DNA of 64,000 bases. Source: Rhodocyclales bacterium (GTDB taxonomy: Bacteria; Pseudomonadota; Gammaproteobacteria; Burkholderiales; Rhodocyclaceae). Of the stretch, positions 50,050-63,513 are shown piece after piece. The stretch spans positions 124,001 through 188,000 of the forward strand of contig JAQGMF010000001.1 of assembly GCA_028292505.1 (NCBI GenBank), read 5' to 3'. Under the pieces are notes generated by a model. It did no database searches and had not been told where the DNA came from. It saw nothing but the letters and a program-made list of their open reading frames with translations. Positions within the stretch are counted from its first letter, which is position 1; the number at the start of each line of letters is the position of its first letter. A program made the translations under genes and the position numbers.

Positions 50050-51246
50050 TCAGTGCAGCAAGGGATACAGCACCAGACCCAGCAAGGCTGCTCCGGCCAC
50101 GACGACGGGCTCCTGCAGCTTCTTGAAACGCCACAACAGTGCAGCCGTTACGATGGCGAGCAGCGCAGTTGCCATATCAACAATGGAACGTTGCGCCAAT
50201 ACGATCACCGACCCAGCAATCGCACCGACGGCCGCCGCAGTAACGCCGTCCACGAAGGCGACGATGGCGGGCAGCTTGCCGTATTTCTTCATGTAAGGCG
50301 CCGGAATGACAGTGAAGAGATAACAGGGCACGAAGGTGCCGATAGCAGCAACAATCGCGCCTTTTAGACCAGCGATGAGGTAACCGATGAAGGCCACGGT
50401 GATGACCACCGGCCCCGGCGTGATCATGGCTACCGCCACCGCATCGACAAACTGTTTGTCATTGAGCCATCGATGCTCGGTAACCACGCCGCCATAGAGA
50501 AACGGCACGATGGCCAGGCCGCTGCCAAATACGAACGAACCGGCCTTGGCGAAGAACAGCGCGATCTGGGTCAGCGTGTGCGTCGAAGCGACGGCGGGCA
50601 CGGCCGGCATCGGTAGCGCTGCGATAGCCGCCATGCCGCCGCCAATCGTGCCACTTCCTCCGCCACGCTTGAAGGCCTTGGGCGGCACGCGCCACAACCA
50701 CACGACGATTCCCGAAGCCAGGAACAACCACGCTACTTCGTTCTGCGTAATGACGGTCACTGCGGTGAGCAACACGAAGATCGCCCACAGCAGCTTGTCG
50801 CGACCGATACTTTTCTGCGTGAGCTTCTTGGTACTCATCGCGATGATGCCGATGACCAAAGCCGCCACGCCATAGAACACAGCCTGCATCCACGGCAGGC
50901 CACCGAAGCGCACGTAAGCCCAGCCAATAGCAAGCACCATGAAAAACGAAGGTATGACAAATGCAAGACCTGCAAGCGTTGCCCCGATGAGGCGGTAATG
51001 CACATAACCCAGGTAGATCGACACCTGCGCGGCCAGCGGCCCCGGTGCAAGCTGAGCGAGCGCCATGCCTTCCTTGTAGTCGCCTTCCGAAATCCAGTGG
51101 CGCTCTTCCACCAGATCGCGATGCATGTAGCCCACCAGCGCAACCGGCCCGCCGAAGCCGATAGTGCCAAGCTTCAACATGTAGAGCACCATCTGCCACA
51201 AGGTATAAGTGGGTGCGTTTTCTGGTTGTACCGCTGCATCACTCAT
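50050..51246 (-). CDS. chrA: Chromate efflux transporter
   Basis: CHR-family inner-membrane transporter of 398 residues with two homologous halves. The first half has LGTIGFGGPVALVGYMHRD and LAQLAPGPLAAQVSIYLG; the second has GSFVFGSGLAIVPFLYGG and VAMITPGPVVITVAFIGYL. About ten hydrophobic segments and a Gly-rich central loop (RGGGSGTIGGG) are seen. Exports chromate from the cytoplasm. The start overlaps the chrB stop by 4 bases (ATGA). Confidence 0.95.
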   Translation of the reverse strand: MSDAAVQPENAPTYTLWQMVLYMLKLGTIGFGGPVALVGYMHRDLVEERHWISEGDYKEGMALAQLAPGPLAAQVSIYLGYVHYRLIGATLAGLAFVIPSFFMVLAIGWAYVRFGGLPWMQAVFYGVAALVIGIIAMSTKKLTQKSIGRDKLLWAIFVLLTAVTVITQNEVAWLFLASGIVVWLWRVPPKAFKRGGGSGTIGGGMAAIAALPMPAVPAVASTHTLTQIALFFAKAGSFVFGSGLAIVPFLYGGVVTEHRWLNDKQFVDAVAVAMITPGPVVITVAFIGYLIAGLKGAIVAAIGTFVPCYLFTVIPAPYMKKYGKLPAIVAFVDGVTAAAVGAIAGSVIVLAQRSIVDMATALLAIVTAALLWRFKKLQEPVVVAGAALLGLVLYPLLH

Positions 51247-52208
51247 TGCTCGCTTCCCGTTTCGTTCTTGAAGTGTTCTTCGAGTGCATCGAATACCTGG
51301 CAGGCCGCTGCCAGCAGTCGATCGTCATCAGCTTCCCTGCGACGCAAGCCGTCGAGAATCGCCGATAGACCCGCCGCTTCGATCACCGGCACGCCGCCCA
51401 CATCGAGCACGTGCACCACAGCGGCAATACGCACCAGTTCCTTGCGTGTATGCAGGCCGAAACTCTCGAGCACGGTCTCGAAGCTCACCCGCCCTTCGAC
51501 GTGGGTAAAAGCGGCGCCATCGAAGTCGAAGCCGAGCGCATCTGTGGGGCAGCTGGTAGGCGATTCCAACCACACAAACCGCGCTTGGGCATCAACGTGT
51601 CGCTGGATGAGCCATGCTGTTGCCAGCCGATCCACCCAGGGGCGGCTACGTGTCGCCCACATGCGGCCCTGGTAGTCCTCGATGTCGAGCGGCGTGATGG
51701 CGCGTGGCACCGAAGACGGCTCGCCCGGCGACACGAGCGGTGCTAGACGTTCGAGGCAGGACTGCAAGGCACGGCGGGCCTGTGCCTGCGCTTCGGTGGG
51801 ATAGAAATCGATGGCCGCCAGTTGCTCCAGCGAGCGCTGCCAGCTCGTCAATCGACGTTCGAGCAGATGTGCCGGTACGGTGGCAGCTTCCGCTTCGATT
51901 TGCGCGAGTTGCGCGATGAGTTCGCGATAGGCGTCGGTGCGCGAGAACAGGCCGATGAACCGCTGCGCCTGCTCCGCGTCGCGCGATGTTATCGATAGAA
52001 GCTCCGCCGTCCCGTCCGCACTTTCAACATCTCGCGCGATGTCTTCCAGTGCTGCCAGATGTTCGAGTGAAGAAGGCAGCACGTATACACCGTCACGCAA
52101 CACGCCGGCGCCGAGCGCCTTGAGTGCGCGCCAGGTGCGGCTTCGGGGTGTCGGTGAGCTGCTTGGCAGGGCGACGGCCAGGGCACAAAGCTCGATCTGA
52201 TCTGTCAT
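51243..52208 (-). CDS. chrB: Chromate resistance regulator/sensor ChrB
   Basis: The 321 residues show an N-terminal winged-helix-like part (LALPSS-type opening; RTWRALKALGAGVLRDGVYVLP) and a C-terminal chromate-resistance domain (RPWVDRLATAWLIQRHVDAQ, FDFDGAAFTHVEGRVSFE, VHVLDVGGVP). ChrB is known to be a chromate-sensing transcriptional regulator of chr operons. First gene of the operon; the 111-base divergent region to 52320 should hold its promoter. Confidence 0.92.
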   Translation of the reverse strand: MTDQIELCALAVALPSSSPTPRSRTWRALKALGAGVLRDGVYVLPSSLEHLAALEDIARDVESADGTAELLSITSRDAEQAQRFIGLFSRTDAYRELIAQLAQIEAEAATVPAHLLERRLTSWQRSLEQLAAIDFYPTEAQAQARRALQSCLERLAPLVSPGEPSSVPRAITPLDIEDYQGRMWATRSRPWVDRLATAWLIQRHVDAQARFVWLESPTSCPTDALGFDFDGAAFTHVEGRVSFETVLESFGLHTRKELVRIAAVVHVLDVGGVPVIEAAGLSAILDGLRRREADDDRLLAAACQVFDALEEHFKNETGSEQ

Positions 52209-52276
52209 GCATCAACTATGGCAGTCAGCAATAGATATTGCAAATAATTCGAAGCTATTGCCAAGGCTTGTGTACT

Positions 52277-52306
52277 GAATAATAATGCGAACCATTCCTA
52301 TTTGTA
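52277..52306. promoter_or_regulatory. Fur-box-like sequence
   Basis: AATAATAATGCGAACCATTC (52278-52297) followed by CTATTTG resembles Fur operators of the xAATGxGAAxxATTCxxATT kind found in beta- and gammaproteobacteria, with imperfect dyad symmetry. It lies 15-40 bases upstream of the outer-membrane-like gene at 52320 and about 70 bases from chrB. Predicts iron repression of the plus-strand pair; effect on chrB is uncertain. Confidence 0.5.
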
Positions 52307-52319
52307 ATTTAGACCTGCC

Positions 52320-53093
52320 ATGTCACCTCGCACATCGTTTTTGCGCATCTGTCCTGCGATATTTCAGCTGTTTGCCGGCCTTGTGTTGGTGGTGTTCGGG
52401 AGCTTTGCACAGGCCGCTCCTCACGTTTTTTCGCCCATTGTCGAGCAAGGCGAACTCGAACTCGAAACGCGGGCGGACAGCACATTCGACAGGCGCGAGG
52501 CGCTGCATCACGCGCGCAGCTACAACGTCGATGTGGGCTACGGTGTTAACGAATTCTGGGCGGCTGAAATCGAGACGCAATGGAAGCAGGCGCCGATGGA
52601 ACCGCGTCAGTACGACTCCACTTCCTGGGAGAATCGCTTTCAGCTGACGCCGCAAGGCAAGTACTGGCTCGATGCCGGAATCTTTGCCGAGTACGAACGT
52701 GTGGTGCGCGACGGCGATCATGACAATGTCACACTCGGTCTGTTGCTGCAAAAAGAGTTTGGCAACAATCTGACCACCTTCAATCTTCTATTCAATCGTG
52801 AGCTAGGTACCGACAGGGAACATGGCCTCGGTGTGGAGTACCGCTTCCAGAGTCGCTGGCGCGTACACCCGACTTTCGAACCTGGCATCGAGATTTATGG
52901 CGAGCCCGGACGCCTCGAGCACATCGATTCGTACGAAAACCAGCGCGTGCGTGCAGGCCCCGCGCTCGTCGGCGCATTACCCTTGGGTTTGCCCGGCAAG
53001 CTGAAATACGAAATCGCCTATCTGTTCGGCGCGAGCCGCGCAAGCGAGCATCGAACCGTGCGCACCATGCTCGAATACGAAGCGCATTTCTAA
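52320..53093 (+). CDS. Secreted, probably outer-membrane beta-barrel protein
   Basis: The 257 residues start with a signal peptide (SFLRICPAIFQLFAGLVLVV, cleavage near AQA-APHVF). The rest is polar with alternating aromatic/hydrophobic strands (VDVGYGVNEFWAAEIETQW, FNLLFNRELGTDREHGLGVE, KLKYEIAYLFGAS). It ends in a C-terminal Phe (LEYEAHF), the outer-membrane barrel insertion signal. I cannot name the family. The next gene, 19 bases on, encodes an exported cupredoxin-like protein; together with the Fur-like box this hints at metal (iron) handling. Confidence 0.75.
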   Translation: MSPRTSFLRICPAIFQLFAGLVLVVFGSFAQAAPHVFSPIVEQGELELETRADSTFDRREALHHARSYNVDVGYGVNEFWAAEIETQWKQAPMEPRQYDSTSWENRFQLTPQGKYWLDAGIFAEYERVVRDGDHDNVTLGLLLQKEFGNNLTTFNLLFNRELGTDREHGLGVEYRFQSRWRVHPTFEPGIEIYGEPGRLEHIDSYENQRVRAGPALVGALPLGLPGKLKYEIAYLFGASRASEHRTVRTMLEYEAHF

Positions 53094-53112
53094 TTGCTGT
53101 GAAGAGCCAAGC

Positions 53113-53454
53113 ATGAAACACATATCCCGTTTTCTGGCCGTGACATCGGCACTACTTTTCTTGGGCATTGCCGCGCCTGTTCGCGCAGACGAAGATAGCC
53201 TGGTGCTGATCATCAGGAATCATCGTTTCGAACCGCAAACGCTCGAAATTCCGGCTGACAAGAAGGTCAAGCTGATCATCAGGAACATGGACGCGACGCC
53301 GGAAGAATTCGACAGCGACGATCTGCATCGCGAGAAACTGATCCCGGCAGGAAAGGAAGTGGCGGTCTATATCGGTCCGTTGAAACCGGGCAGTTACAAG
53401 TTCATCGGCGAGTACAACGCCGCGACCGCCGTGGGTACGGTAGTCGCAAAATAG
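53113..53454 (+). CDS. Periplasmic cupredoxin-like domain protein
   Basis: The 113 residues have a cleavable signal peptide (VTSALLFLGIAAPVRA, then DEDSL) and a single cupredoxin-like domain (LIIRNHRFEPQTLEIPADKK, LIIRNMDATPEEFDSDDL, AGKEVAVYIGPLKPGSYKF). It lacks the Cys-His-Met blue-copper ligands. It resembles the EfeO-type cupredoxin found next to iron permeases or OMP genes, where a Glu/Asp/His site binds iron or copper. Paired with the preceding barrel protein. Confidence 0.82.
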   Translation: MKHISRFLAVTSALLFLGIAAPVRADEDSLVLIIRNHRFEPQTLEIPADKKVKLIIRNMDATPEEFDSDDLHREKLIPAGKEVAVYIGPLKPGSYKFIGEYNAATAVGTVVAK

Positions 53455-55717: not shown

Positions 55718-55900
55718 TCAGGCACCAAAATAGGAATAAGCAAGCGGGCCGCTCTTCTCTATTTCGTCTTCGGTCGGACGATATGGCGGCACAGCTGCAG
55801 GTGGAACTTTGGCGATCTGGAAGTCTTCGTCACACAGTGCCAACTGGCTCAAAAACAAACGGTCGAAGACTTTGGAGGCGACGTTACTCAGGGTTTGCAT
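55718..55900 (-). CDS. Hypothetical 60-residue protein
   Basis: A small open frame with AAGGA about 8 bases before the ATG at 55900. The protein (MQTLSNVASKVFDRLFLSQL at the N-terminus) is half helical and amphipathic, half Pro-rich (VPPAAVPPY), and ends in an aromatic tail. It lies 83 bases after the anti-sigma gene on the same strand and could be the third gene of that transcript. No family recognised. Support is the ribosome-binding site, the natural amino-acid mix and the lack of an overlapping better gene. Confidence 0.5.
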   Translation of the reverse strand: MQTLSNVASKVFDRLFLSQLALCDEDFQIAKVPPAAVPPYRPTEDEIEKSGPLAYSYFGA

Positions 55901-55983
55901 GGCTGGAGTCCTTCGTTGTTTCCCTTGCGATACATTGGTATCCGCAAACCCCATGCCGAAACATCGCGTGTCCAGTGATTCCC

Positions 55984-56757
55984 TTATGTAGGTTCGTTGA
56001 CCGCCACGCGCAGCCCTTGCGCGAAGCGTTCGACATCGCTGGCCGCGCAGTCCGAGATGGCCCAGAAATTCATCCCTTGCGCCGTCCAGTGCATCAGATG
56101 GTAGCCATTGCGCGTCTGCGTAGAAGCTACATCGTGGCTACTCGCCGGCCATACGTACAAATTGATGGGGTGCTGGCGTACGTGATAGACGAGTGCCGCG
56201 ACCGCGTGACCATCGAGATAGTCGAGACGGCCGCCGACCAGCGGGAATCCTTGCGTGGCGAGATCGACCACCGGCGGCGCGAAATCGAGCTTGCCGTTGA
56301 ACCAGGGCTTCACCGTATGTTGATCCGTCGAGGCGACGTCCGACAGATGATCGACCTGTAGCGAGCGCACATGGTCCGAGACGATTTCTTCGGCGAGACG
56401 CTCTTGCGCCGAGGGCTGCATGACATACAGGCCCAGGCTCCATGCGGCGACGAGTGCGCATGCCATCGCGATGCCGGTGTGCAACCAAGGTGCGCGCCAC
56501 TGCATCGTCCAGCGGCGCGGCGCGGCAGCATTGCTTTTGGGCAGGCTGGCACGCAAGCGCGCTTCGAGATGCGGCGGCGCCGTGAAGTAACTTGCCCGTG
56601 CCTTGATTTGCGCACCGAGATCCCGCTGCGCCGCATGTTCGCGTCGGCAGTCCGGGCAATTTTGCAAGTGTTCGTCGATGCCCATCAACTCACCTACGCC
56701 GAGCTCCTGGTCGATATAGGCCGGCAATAGCTCAGCCACTTTTTTGCAGTCCATCAT
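55984..56757 (-). CDS. Anti-sigma factor with N-terminal zinc finger and one membrane span
   Basis: The 257 residues start with a zf-HC2 type zinc-binding anti-sigma domain (His30, Cys34, Cys37 in HLQNCPDC). One membrane segment follows (about 100-120; GIAMACALVAAWSLGLYVM). The periplasmic domain (about 120-257) is of the type that senses envelope stress (DLATQGFPLVGGRLDYLDGH, LYVWPASS, MHWTAQGMNFWAISDC). It overlaps the sigma-factor stop by 4 bases, so both are made together. Holds the sigma factor at the membrane until a signal releases it (family knowledge). Confidence 0.88.
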   Translation of the reverse strand: MMDCKKVAELLPAYIDQELGVGELMGIDEHLQNCPDCRREHAAQRDLGAQIKARASYFTAPPHLEARLRASLPKSNAAAPRRWTMQWRAPWLHTGIAMACALVAAWSLGLYVMQPSAQERLAEEIVSDHVRSLQVDHLSDVASTDQHTVKPWFNGKLDFAPPVVDLATQGFPLVGGRLDYLDGHAVAALVYHVRQHPINLYVWPASSHDVASTQTRNGYHLMHWTAQGMNFWAISDCAASDVERFAQGLRVAVNEPT

Positions 56758-57290
56758 GCCTCCTGACCATTGTGTGCCAACAGCCCGGCGAACAGCTTGC
56801 GGCCGCGCGCCAGTCGTGACATCACCGTGCCGATGGGTATGCCGATGACATCGGCAATCTGACGGTAGGACAGATCGTCCAGCTCGCGCATCACCAGTAC
56901 CTCACGAAATTCTATCGGCATTTTCTCAAGCGCCCTATTCACCATGCGTTCGTCATCGCGGCGCTGCAATGCATTTTCGGCAGTCTTGGCGCCATGCGCC
57001 GATATGTCTTCCATGCTATGGCAGTCTTCATCGAATTGCTCGCTGCGCGAATGCTCCTGGCTCTGGCGGTAATGCGTATAGAAAGTATTGCGCACGATGG
57101 CCAACAGCCAGGTGCGGCCATCGCCGCCGTGAAAACGTTCGAAATACTTGAAGGCCTTCAGATAAGCCTCCTGCACGACATCTTCTGCGTCGTGGTCGCT
57201 ACGCGTGAGCCAGCGCGCCAGATTGAACGCGCTGTTCAGGTGAGGTAACACCGTCGCTTCGAAGCGCTGTGACTTGGTCAAGTCTGTCAT
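56754..57290 (-). CDS. ECF-type RNA polymerase sigma factor
   Basis: The 178 residues show region 2 (LTRSDHDAEDVVQEAYLKAF, WLLAIVRNTFYTHYR) and region 4 (PIEFREVLVMRELDDLSYRQ, IPIGTVMSRLARGRKLF). It drives genes for an exported response in other bacteria. Here the candidate promoter of the sigma operon (57346-57373) and that of the divergent operon (57419-57446) share one bipartite motif, so both are probable targets. Translationally coupled to its anti-sigma factor. Confidence 0.93.
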   Translation of the reverse strand: MTDLTKSQRFEATVLPHLNSAFNLARWLTRSDHDAEDVVQEAYLKAFKYFERFHGGDGRTWLLAIVRNTFYTHYRQSQEHSRSEQFDEDCHSMEDISAHGAKTAENALQRRDDERMVNRALEKMPIEFREVLVMRELDDLSYRQIADVIGIPIGTVMSRLARGRKLFAGLLAHNGQEA

Positions 57291-57345
57291 GGAGGTCCGC
57301 CTGCTTTTACCGGCTCTTGCCTGTTTCTGCCTACTTCTACTTGCG

Positions 57346-57373
57346 TGTACCGGCTGCAGCCGGATTTTATTCC
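57346..57373 (-). promoter_or_regulatory. Predicted ECF promoter of the sigma/anti-sigma operon
   Basis: On the minus strand GGAATAAA (57366-57373) is followed after 14 bases by GGTACA (57346-57351). This has the same spacing and nearly the same boxes as the divergent copy on the plus strand. The sigma-gene ATG lies 56 bases further on. Autoregulation of the sigma operon follows if correct. Confidence 0.7.
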
Positions 57374-57418
57374 CGTATGACGTGCTTTTTATTTTTTCGG
57401 CTTGTTGCGACAGCCCGC

Positions 57419-57446
57419 GGAATAAATCGCGCGACCCGTCGGTACT
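57419..57446 (+). promoter_or_regulatory. Predicted ECF promoter of the metallophosphoesterase/cupredoxin operon
   Basis: GGAATAAA (57419-57426), 14 bases, GGTACT (57441-57446), ending 43 bases before the ATG at 57490. It matches the minus-strand copy in both boxes and in spacing. A good ribosome-binding site (AGGAGAG) precedes the gene. Confidence 0.7.
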
Positions 57447-57489: not shown

Positions 57490-58392
57490 ATGGACAAACC
57501 CATTGATCGACGTAATTTCATGAAGCTGGCGGGCCTGGGCGGTGTGGTGTTCGCGTCCGGCCTGGCAGGCTGCGCGCACATGGCCGGCTCGGCCTCCGAT
57601 GCATCGAATGAAGACTTTTTCTTCGTACAACTTTCCGATTCGCACTGGGGCTTCGAAGGCGACGTCAACCCTGACGCCAAAGGCACGCTGAAGAAAGCAG
57701 TCGCTGCGGTTAACAGTCTTGAAGTGCAACCGGACTTTATCGTGTTCACGGGTGACCTCACGCACACCACCGACGATCCGCGCGAACGCCGCAAGCGCAT
57801 GGGCGAATTCAAGGAGATCGTCGGCGCGCTCAAGGTGCCGACCCTTTACTTCATGCCCGGCGAACACGACGCCTCGCTCGATCGCGGCAAGGCCTATCAG
57901 GAATTCTTCGGCCAGACGTACTACAGCTTCGACCACAAGGGCATTCATTTCGTCGTCATCGACAATGTATCCGACCCCAGTGCCAGCATCGGCGATGAGC
58001 AACTTGCCTGGCTTGCCGCCGATCTCAAACCGCTGGCCGATGACGCCAGGATTGTGGTCTTCACCCATCGGCCCTTGTTCGATCTGTATCCGCAATGGGA
58101 CTGGGCGACGCGTGACGGCGACAAGGCCGTGAGCTTGCTGATGCCTTACCGCAATGTCACGGTATTCTATGGGCATATCCACCAGGAAAATCATCACATG
58201 ACCGGGCACATCGCGCACCATTCCGCCAAGTCGCTGATATTCCCCTTGCCCGCGCCCGGTTCCCAGCCCAAGCGCCTGCCGTTGCCGTGGGACGCCGGCC
58301 AGCCCTATCGCGGTCTGGGCTTTCGCGAGGTGACGGCCAAACCGGTACGTGCCGAATACACACTCGTCGAATTTCCGGTGCAGAAGGGATGA
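57490..58392 (+). CDS. Tat-exported metallophosphoesterase (possible lipoprotein)
   Basis: The 300 residues start with a twin-arginine leader (DRRNFMKLAGLGG) that also contains a lipobox (SGLAGC, Cys28). The calcineurin-like phosphoesterase domain shows FFVQLSDSHWGF (metal Asp), FIVFTGDLTHTTDD, FMPGEHDASLD in which the usual GNHD reads GEHD, and FTHRPLFDLY and FYGHIHQENHH for the remaining metal His. Replacement of Asn by Glu at the GNHD site is unusual and may change the metal bridge. Predicted target of the ECF sigma factor; the stop overlaps the cupredoxin gene (ATGA). Confidence 0.88.
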   Translation: MDKPIDRRNFMKLAGLGGVVFASGLAGCAHMAGSASDASNEDFFFVQLSDSHWGFEGDVNPDAKGTLKKAVAAVNSLEVQPDFIVFTGDLTHTTDDPRERRKRMGEFKEIVGALKVPTLYFMPGEHDASLDRGKAYQEFFGQTYYSFDHKGIHFVVIDNVSDPSASIGDEQLAWLAADLKPLADDARIVVFTHRPLFDLYPQWDWATRDGDKAVSLLMPYRNVTVFYGHIHQENHHMTGHIAHHSAKSLIFPLPAPGSQPKRLPLPWDAGQPYRGLGFREVTAKPVRAEYTLVEFPVQKG

Positions 58393-58772
58393 CGATGCGT
58401 ACATATATGACAAACGTATTCAGGCGGCGTCTATTGACGGGAGCCGCCGGGGTGGCCGGGCTTGGCATGCTCGGCACCCTCGGTTTTGCCCAGTCGGGCG
58501 AGCGCGTGATCAAGGTGGTAGCCAAGAAATTCGACTACACGCCGGCCACTATCGAACTTGCAAAGGGCGAGACGGTCGTGCTGGAACTCATCTCGATGGA
58601 TGTGACGATGGGCTTCAACGCGCCGGATTTTCATGTGCGTACTGACATCGTGCCAGGCAAGACCGCCAGCGTGCGCTTGACGGCTGACAAGACCGGCAAG
58701 TTCGAGTTCTATTGCGATGTGTTCTGCGGCGACGGCCACGAAGACATGGGCGGCGTCATCGTCGTGACCTGA
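58389..58772 (+). CDS. CuA-like (cytochrome oxidase subunit II-type) cupredoxin
   Basis: The 127 residues have a Tat-like leader (FRRRLLTGAAGVAGLG) and one cupredoxin domain. The C-terminal metal loop YCDVFCGDGHEDM places Cys109, Cys113, His117 and Met120 in the CxxxCxxxHxxM order of a CuA centre. In COX2-type domains the first His lies in DVxH; here that segment reads DVTMGFNAPDFHVRTD, so Met74 stands in the His place and a new His82 lies eight residues later. The protein may bind copper as a modified CuA or a mononuclear site. Coupled to the metallophosphoesterase gene by ATGA overlap. Confidence 0.88.
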   Translation: MTMRTYMTNVFRRRLLTGAAGVAGLGMLGTLGFAQSGERVIKVVAKKFDYTPATIELAKGETVVLELISMDVTMGFNAPDFHVRTDIVPGKTASVRLTADKTGKFEFYCDVFCGDGHEDMGGVIVVT

Positions 58773-60609: not shown

Positions 60610-61056
60610 TCATGCAGCTTTGCGCCCCGCCAGATCGTCGAGTATCGGGCAATTAGGGCGACTGTCACCTGCGCAGCAGCGCACAAGTTCCTTCAGGGTG
60701 TTGGTCATGCTTTGAAGCTCGCTGATCTTGGTTTGCAACTCATCGATATGGCGTGCGGCGATCTTCTTGACTGAAGCGCTGGAGCGCCTGCGATCCTGCC
60801 ACAAACTCAGCAATTCCCTGATCTCTTCCATCGAAAAGCCGAGCGTGCGCGCGCGTTTGATGAAACGCAGTGTATGCACATGTTGTTCGGTGTACAGGCG
60901 ATAGTTTGCTGCCGTGCGCGCCACGTTTTTGAGGAGACCGATCTCTTCGTAGTGGCGAATCATCTTCACTGAAACGCCGCTCGCTTTCGTGGCGAGACCA
61001 ATGTCGATGAAGCCATTTTCAAATGCCTCGGCGTGTTGCAGAAGTACCCTTTTCAT
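60610..61056 (-). CDS. cueR: CueR-type MerR family copper regulator
   Basis: The 148 residues contain an N-terminal winged helix ([43 protein letters not shown]), a dimerisation helix and the C-terminal metal loop [12 protein letters not shown]. In this loop two Cys are separated by seven residues exactly as in CueR (Cys112/Cys120), which senses Cu+. The start at 61056 ([15 protein letters not shown]) lies inside the 3' end of copA (38-base overlap), so it is made from the copA transcript and should be autoregulated through the copA promoter. Confidence 0.92.
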
Positions 61057-63466
61057 ATTTGTTGCCTCCGTCCGATGCGGCGCTGCCGCGCCAGCGCCCA
61101 AGCAACAAAGCATTGCTGACGACACTGACACTCGAAAACGCCATTGCCGCCCCCGCGACCACCGGATTGAGCAAGCCGGCTGCAGCAAGCGGTATGCCAA
61201 CAATGTTGTAAATGAAAGCCCAGAAAAGATTCTGCCGGATTTTTTGGAAGGTTCTTTGCGAAATGTCAATTGCATCATTTACCAGGCGTGGATCGTTGCG
61301 CATGAGCGTGATGCCTGCTGCTTGCATTGCAACGTCCGTGCCACCCCCCATGGCAATACCGATGTCCGCTGCAGCAAGGGCCGGCGCGTCGTTGATGCCA
61401 TCGCCGACCATGGCGACGAAGCCGTATCGATGGCGCAGCTCTGCCATGATGGCTGCCTTGTCCGCTGGCAGCACTTCGGCACGGACCTCCTCGATGCCGA
61501 GTCGCGCGGCGATGGACGCCGCGCTGGTGGCATGATCGCCCGTGACAAGCACCGGCGTAATGCCGCGCAGGCGTAGCACCTGAATCGCGGCGGATGCCTC
61601 CGGTCGCGGTTCGTCGCCGAAGGCGAGCAGGGCCATGAGGCGCTGCGGCGCTGCGCTCGCCATCCACGATACCGTGCGACCTTCAGCCTGTAATTGCTCG
61701 GCTCGCGCCCGCAATGGCGCGAGGTCTACCTCAAACTCCTGCATCCAGCGTGAGCTGCCAACGAGGATATTGGCGCCCGCGACGTGCGCGCGAATGCCTC
61801 GGCCTGCCTCCACTTTTAGGTCGCTTACCGCAGGCAGCGCCAAGCCTTGGCGATGCGCCTCCTGAACGACTGCCAGTCCCAGCGGATGTTCGCTGCCCGA
61901 CTGGATCGCCGCAGCAATGGCGAGCGCTTCCTCCGGCCTCCCGGCGACAGATTCTATGGCGACCAACGTCGGCTTGCCCGATGTGAGTGTGCCGGTCTTG
62001 TCGAAAGCGATGACGCGCAGCTTGTGGGCGATCTCCAGCGCCTCCGCATCCTTGATGAGAATGCCGCGTCTGGCCGCGACGCCCGTGCCTGCCATGATGG
62101 CCGTTGGTGTGGCAAGCCCCAATGCGCAGGGACAGGCGATGACCAGCACGGCCACTGCATTCAGAATCGCGCGTTGCCAGTCGCCGCCGGCCAAGCCCCA
62201 ACCGACCAGCGTCAGCAGCGCCAGGGCGAGTACGACGGGGACGAAGACGGCGCTGACCCTGTCAACCAGTCGCTGGATGGGCGCCTTCTTCGCTTGCGCG
62301 TTTTCCACCAGGGCGATGATGTGCGCCAGTTGCGTTTGCGTGCCGACCGCTGTCGTCTCGATAGCGATCATGCCGTCGGCATTGATGGCGCCGCCGATCA
62401 CAGTGTCACCGATAGCCTTGAAGACTGGCAGGCTCTCGCCGGTGAGAAGGGACTCGTCAACGTGCGAACTACCTTCGATGATGCGACCGTCGACGGGGAT
62501 GCGCTCGCCAGCGCGAACGATGACAATGTCATCGACGTGTACTTGGCCGAGGGGTACGTCAAGTTGCGTGGCGGCTTTACGCACTCTGGCCGTCTCTGGC
62601 CGCAAGGCTTGCAGCGCCCGGATCGCGGAGGTGGTCTGGCGTTTCGCGCGTGTCTCCAGCCACTTGCCCAGCAAGACCAGGGTGATGACGGCAGCCGAGG
62701 CTTCGAAATAGAGATCGGCCATGTGGCTCGGCGCCGACAGGAGCTGATAAATGCTCAGGCCATAGGCGGCACTCGTCCCCAGTGCCACCAGCAAGTCCAT
62801 ATTGCCAGTGCGTGCCACGAGCGCTTTCCAGCCGGCGCGGTAAAAGCGCGCACCGAAGACGAACTGCACGGGTGTTGCCAGCAGCCATTGCCATGTGCCG
62901 GACAGCATCCAGTGCGTGCCGAAGACCGCGCCCAGCATCGGCAGCATCAAGGGTAGCGTGAACAAAACGCTGGCGAGCAGTAGCCACTTTTGCGTATCGC
63001 GCTCGGGTGCCTGAGTCGTTTCTGGTGTGATCCGCCTCGCGTCGTAGCCAGCCTTGGACGCTACCGCCAGCAAGGCCTCCTCGCGCGTGCCATGCGCAAC
63101 GACACGTGCGCGTTCGGTCGCGAGGTTGACGACGACCTCTTCGACGCCATCGACGGCGCGCAAGGCCTTTTCAACGCGAGCGACGCAACTGGCGCAACTC
63201 ATGCCGGCGATGGCAAGGTCGATCGTCGCGGCAGGAACGGCGTAGCCGGCGCGCTCGATTGCTTGCACGAGCTGCTCGATGGTGGCTTGTGGTTTGAAAC
63301 TTACATTCGCTTGCTCGGTGGCGAGATTGACGTTCGCCTCGGCCACGCCGTCGACAGCACGCAAGGCTTTCTCGACGCGGCCCGCGCAGGAGGCGCAGCT
63401 CATGCCGGTAACGGGCAGGGTAATGTTGCGGTTCGGCGAAGTCTCGCCAGAGAGTGCATTTGTCAT
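61019..63466 (-). CDS. copA: Copper-exporting P1B-type ATPase
   Basis: Pumps Cu+ out of the cytoplasm. It has two N-terminal HMA domains ([15 protein letters not shown] and [15 protein letters not shown]). Eight membrane spans include the intramembrane copper site CPCAL, with the actuator motif LLTGES, phospho-Asp in [16 protein letters not shown] and [11 protein letters not shown] place the start at 63466 (815 residues). An in-frame ATG at 63511 would lie at or upstream of the predicted transcription start of the CueR-type promoter (about 63507). It overlaps cueR at the 3' end. Confidence 0.95.
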
Positions 63467-63513
63467 ATTTTCGGTCGTCTGGATCGTGGACGCCTGAAAT
63501 GCGCGATGCACGG

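Follow-up and report, generated by a model that had tools for sequence, protein, structure and literature searches.

Divergent motif copies predicted to be promoters of an adjacent ECF sigma factor with an apparently private regulon

In the window (the whole 64,000-nucleotide stretch of DNA analysed here), a sigma factor gene and a metallophosphoesterase gene point away from each other, and the short region between them raises the question of which regulator reads it. An earlier note, made from the sequence, had described one copy of GGAATAAA-N14-GGTAC on each strand with equal spacing. The window sequence bears this out. The minus-strand copy is GGAATAAA-ATCCGGCTGCAGCC-GGTAC at 57373..57347 and the plus-strand copy is GGAATAAA-TCGCGCGACCCGTC-GGTAC at 57419..57445, each with an N14 spacer, and both lie between the sigma gene (56754-57290, minus strand) and the phosphoesterase gene (57490-58392, plus strand). 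The start had been placed at 57346; the motif begins at 57347. The features of the two operons are as follows.

55984..56757, minus strand: membrane anti-sigma factor, 257 aa (zf-HC2; hydrophobic stretch at residues 95-113)
56754..57290, minus strand: ECF sigma factor, 178 aa (Pfam Sigma70_r2 and Sigma70_r4_2)
57347..57352, minus strand: predicted -10 element CGGTAC of the sigma operon promoter, with a predicted start near 57338
57366..57374, minus strand: predicted -35 element GGGAATAAA of the sigma operon promoter; sigma side kept in 98% of 59 loci at a score of at least 10
57419..57426, plus strand: predicted -35 element GGAATAAA of the phosphoesterase operon promoter, kept in 95% of 59 loci at a score of at least 10
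57440..57445, plus strand: predicted -10 element CGGTAC of the phosphoesterase operon promoter, with the predicted start at A57454
57455..57470, plus strand: hairpin CCGATC-AGTC-GATCGG at the predicted 5' end of the phosphoesterase transcript
57490..58392, plus strand: TAT-signal calcineurin-like metallophosphoesterase, 300 aa (Pfam Metallophos; TIGR01409 TAT signal)
58389..58772, plus strand: CuA-like cupredoxin with a twin-arginine N terminus (Pfam Cupredoxin_1 and COX2)

The 178-residue sigma factor consists of sigma70 regions 2 and 4 only, as is characteristic of ECF (group IV) factors, and its stop codon is overlapped by the start of the anti-sigma gene, giving the co-encoded anti-sigma factor that is likewise a mark of ECF systems. 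Its score against the PRK12533 (NF009185) family was 225.5 bits, which is below the curated cut-off of 248. The anti-sigma factor presumably has a cytoplasmic zinc-finger domain, one membrane span and a periplasmic C-terminal domain, and the C-terminal part is conserved. Directly past its gene, on the same strand, lies a 78-aa open reading frame (55718-55954) that could be a third gene of the sigma operon and for which no family match was obtained. On the other side, the start of the cupredoxin is ambiguous among 58389, 58395 and 58407. Residues C102, C106, H110 and M113 of this protein (C-x3-C-x3-H-x2-M) are invariant in 79 sequences, and position 67 is occupied by His (48 sequences) or Met (31 sequences, the window protein among those with Met). 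We take these residues to match the CuA-type ligand set, with position 67 as the upstream His ligand. Judged by eye from the translations, the surroundings at 50050-53454 and 61019-63511 are metal-related and include chromate-transporter-like genes and a copper-type P-type ATPase; a second cupredoxin, recognised by a Pfam match, is encoded at 53113-53454.

Exact matches to GGAATAAA and GGTAC at spacings of N12-16 numbered two in the 3.8-Mb genome, both at this locus, and a reversed control pattern had none in the same genome. The expectation from base composition is about 0.05 such matches per genome at one spacing, which is a post hoc figure. Because the motif had been defined after both copies were seen, we used the comparison with other genomes as the real test. 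Other genomes yielded 77 loci with the phosphoesterase, which was also present in 10 more members of the window's own family, and a divergent sigma gene was found nearby in 60 loci (the window counted), 59 of them distinct; these loci are related rather than independent samples, and nearly all were retrieved via the phosphoesterase. A copy was accepted if it scored 10 or more out of 14 with a spacing of 14, and first-order Markov simulations of the same regions served as the null. At this threshold, the motif was present at the phosphoesterase side in 95%, at the sigma side in 98% and at both sides in 93% of the 59 divergent loci, as compared with 0.8% for both sides in the simulated sequences. 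With a score of at least 11, the corresponding values were 76% and 0%. One locus (L091) had no good sigma-side copy. The earlier note had suggested aligning the same region in relatives, where loss of the motifs beside retained genes would have told against it; they were not lost. The distance from the box to GGTA is fixed at 14 even though the flanking sequence diverges. As judged from these loci, the paired signal is kept at this cluster across many Proteobacteria of several classes.

This conservation bears on another alternative, a chance likeness between two stretches rich in A that share an intergenic region, which is encouraged by the fact that the motif was picked once both copies had been seen. 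Conservation at a fixed spacing in dozens of loci of several classes, and in rearranged loci as well, has already refuted this explanation, leaving it a probability close to nil. The statement in the earlier note that a chance origin is very unlikely is thereby upheld, by the conservation and not by the 0.05 figure. The recognition sequence proposed there needs amendment. The consensus element is CGGGAATAAA-N14-CGGTAT, in which the two boxes and the N14 spacing are retained, but the element is wider and the final C of GGTAC is not conserved, this position being T in 71% of the phosphoesterase-side and 83% of the sigma-side copies. The -10 box is loose, with GTA, GTC and GTT all found. At the phosphoesterase promoter, T followed by A/G is enriched at the predicted -1/+1 positions, the starts being predicted by analogy with S. 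meliloti ECF26 promoters, whose mapped starts set the register (PMC6180224). The spacer of the window's minus-strand promoter also contains a perfect 14-base palindrome, CCGGCTGCAGCCGG, at 57350-57363, which was not seen to be conserved elsewhere.

Facing each other in short intergenic regions, the boxes resemble a single palindrome, and the inverted repeat TTTATTCCC...GGGAATAAA could instead be an operator for a dimeric DNA-binding regulator rather than a pair of -35 elements. The distance between the boxes, however, varies widely among loci, whereas that from box to GGTA is constant at 14, and operon-type loci retain only one half of the repeat with GGTA still at N14. We rejected the dimeric operator, which we regard as extremely unlikely, because the inter-box spacing varies and single copies exist. 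The single copies come from about a dozen loci in which phosphoesterase, cupredoxin, sigma and anti-sigma genes follow one another in this order on one strand; the one motif stands ahead of the phosphoesterase gene, and no convincing copy precedes the sigma gene in these loci. In 14 loci a cytochrome c gene lies upstream of the phosphoesterase gene, in most cases with its own motif copy. Three of the family genomes (G022, G032 and G093; loci L160-L162) have one copy each for cytochrome c and phosphoesterase, and there the cytochrome c stop codon TAA falls inside the second -35 box. Plasmid loci of distant relatives were compared as well, some of them with phosphoesterases only 35-37% identical. 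Of four such divergent loci, three have the motif ahead of the sigma gene and of the phosphoesterase gene, and in the fourth (Gemmatirosa) a weak match on the sigma side was all that was seen. L103, L105 and L109, which lack a nearby sigma gene, also lack the motif; two others (L072 and L087) have the motif and no sigma gene within the fetched stretch.

If the motifs are genuine ECF-type promoters, their user could still be one of the cell's other ECF sigma factors and not the adjacent one. This alternative draws on the fact that in ECF groups such as ECF26 the boxes are very much alike and that RpoE1 and RpoE4 of S. meliloti cross-activate (PMC6180224). The divergent, presumably autoregulatory arrangement at this locus is typical of ECF pairs and speaks against it. 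The distribution of the motif also speaks against it. Of 121 family genomes, 11 have the sigma factor and precisely these 11 have the phosphoesterase, and the window's own genome has a single match to the sigma factor at E<=1e-25. The strict pattern GGGAATAAN14CGGTA, searched in the 121 family genomes, gave 12 matches, 10 of them at this locus, as against 4 for the control. It was matched in 6 of the 11 genomes with the sigma gene and in 2 of the 110 without it (Fisher p about 3e-6), the matches in the two sigma-free genomes being at background level. Use by another sigma factor is thus very unlikely in our estimate. The motif goes with the sigma gene, and we infer that the adjacent sigma factor reads the boxes directly.

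The earlier note had offered the motif as a search pattern for a regulon. The pattern does track the sigma gene, but it yielded no further shared targets. For a whole-genome scan, we used a sequence-only covariance model built from 58 sites, the window's own excluded, and scored the best 150 candidates per genome, at which depth weaker further targets could escape. The locus was top-ranked in 10 of the 11 sigma-bearing genomes, two of which (G097 and G031) are not independent tests because their sites are part of the model. Among the best 150 candidates of each genome, no further target was shared between sigma-bearing genomes; their other matches were weak and unshared, and those examined were mostly inside genes. 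In 11 sigma-free genomes, the best profile matches had E values of 0.03-1.4, which is background. Two candidates in the window's own genome were considered and attributed to chance. The one extra profile match (C15:12966-13002) is inside and antisense to an inorganic pyrophosphatase-like gene, and an intergenic pattern match before a birA-like gene (C18:45101), which was not among the profile matches, would place its -10 element very near the start codon. Since no further shared targets were found, the regulon appears to be private, essentially one locus and unusually self-contained.

The fixed spacing, the 93% retention of both copies, the rearranged operons and the co-occurrence with the sigma gene all support the original proposal that the boxes are the -35 and -10 elements of the adjacent ECF sigma factor. 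We consider it highly probable that the two motifs are its divergent, back-to-back promoters and that they define a private regulon. In such a system, the membrane anti-sigma factor would hold the sigma factor, leaving both promoters weak, until a periplasmic signal, probably redox or metal stress, frees it to bind CGGGAATAAA-N14-CGGTAT. Leftward transcription would then supply sigma and anti-sigma factors, that is, positive feedback together with restraint, and rightward transcription would supply the TAT-exported phosphoesterase and the CuA-like cupredoxin, joined in some relatives by cytochrome c from its own copy of the motif. These products would take part in the response of the periplasm to redox or metal stress.

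Two known kinds of ECF system come closest to the present one. SigH of Mycobacterium tuberculosis is an ECF12 factor with a zinc-finger anti-sigma factor and a GGAA-type -35 element, in both of which it is like the present system. Anti-sigma factors of the SigH/SigR type are soluble, whereas the one encoded here carries, in addition, a hydrophobic span and a C-terminal domain, and the regulon of SigH is broad whereas the one described here appears private. The only ECF26 sigma factor compared, which we presume to be RpoE6, was the best match in a 40-kb stretch of pSymA, with 35% identity. Among solved structures, the best match was SigH (5zx2, 96 bits). The promoters of the S. meliloti ECF26 factors have a -35 element GGGAATA(AA) and a -10 element GTC, and the ECF26 consensus is GGAATA for -35 and GT for -10, with the spacing found here (PMC6180224). 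The element CGGGAATAAA-N14-CGGTAT agrees with this consensus, and the zf-HC2 domain and the span at residues 95-113 agree with the ECF26 anti-sigma architecture, as far as the predicted topology goes. The ECF26 factors RpoE1 and RpoE4 (PMC6180224, PMC3511301, PMC6527743) are like the present one in the -35 element, in a GT-type -10 element at the same register, in a sigma gene followed by that of a membrane anti-sigma factor, in autoregulation, which is predicted here, and in the small size of the regulon, as far as the scan shows. The sulfite oxidase driven by RpoE4, together with a cytochrome c and a pseudoazurin (PMC6180224), makes up a set of periplasmic redox proteins, in which the present system would resemble it. 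The -10 element at our loci, however, is mostly CGGTA/T in place of the CGTC of S. meliloti ECF26 promoters, and the predicted targets, TAT phosphoesterase and CuA-like cupredoxin, belong to an operon that, unlike that of RpoE4, has no sulfite oxidase. Given the 35% identity to the pSymA match and SigH as the best solved match, we liken the sigma factor to ECF26 without assigning it to that group; it resembles the ECF26 systems in promoter and anti-sigma architecture and may work as they do.

We would give an even chance to the broader proposal that the locus is a horizontally spread, undescribed periplasmic stress module, in which the entire regulon of an ECF/anti-sigma pair consists of a TAT phosphoesterase, a stand-alone CuA-type cupredoxin and, in some genomes, a cytochrome c, forming a private system for electron transfer or repair that has its own sensor. 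A literature search for the sigma/phosphoesterase/cupredoxin module, its motif and its group found no paper describing the module. The comparison supplies an ECF sigma lineage, on which we found no experimental paper, with a well-supported recognition sequence. Through one regulatory signal it also links the exported phosphoesterase, so far uncharacterised, with a copper protein of CuA-like type and a cytochrome c. With a single-locus regulon, the physiological signal could be searched for by a simple reporter, and the promoter-sigma pair is directly testable in a laboratory strain.

The hairpin in the phosphoesterase leader is a more local feature. We rejected it as a general part of the promoter because just 13% of the phosphoesterase-side leaders fold clearly better than shuffled sequences. 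Relatives of the hairpin occur in Herbaspirillum, Glaciimonas, Methylotenera, Massilia/Telluria and others, at some loci only. In an alignment of 10 sequences, 96.7% of the cells are paired and three pairs are changed on both sides, and the hairpin could serve as an mRNA stabiliser or as an operator.
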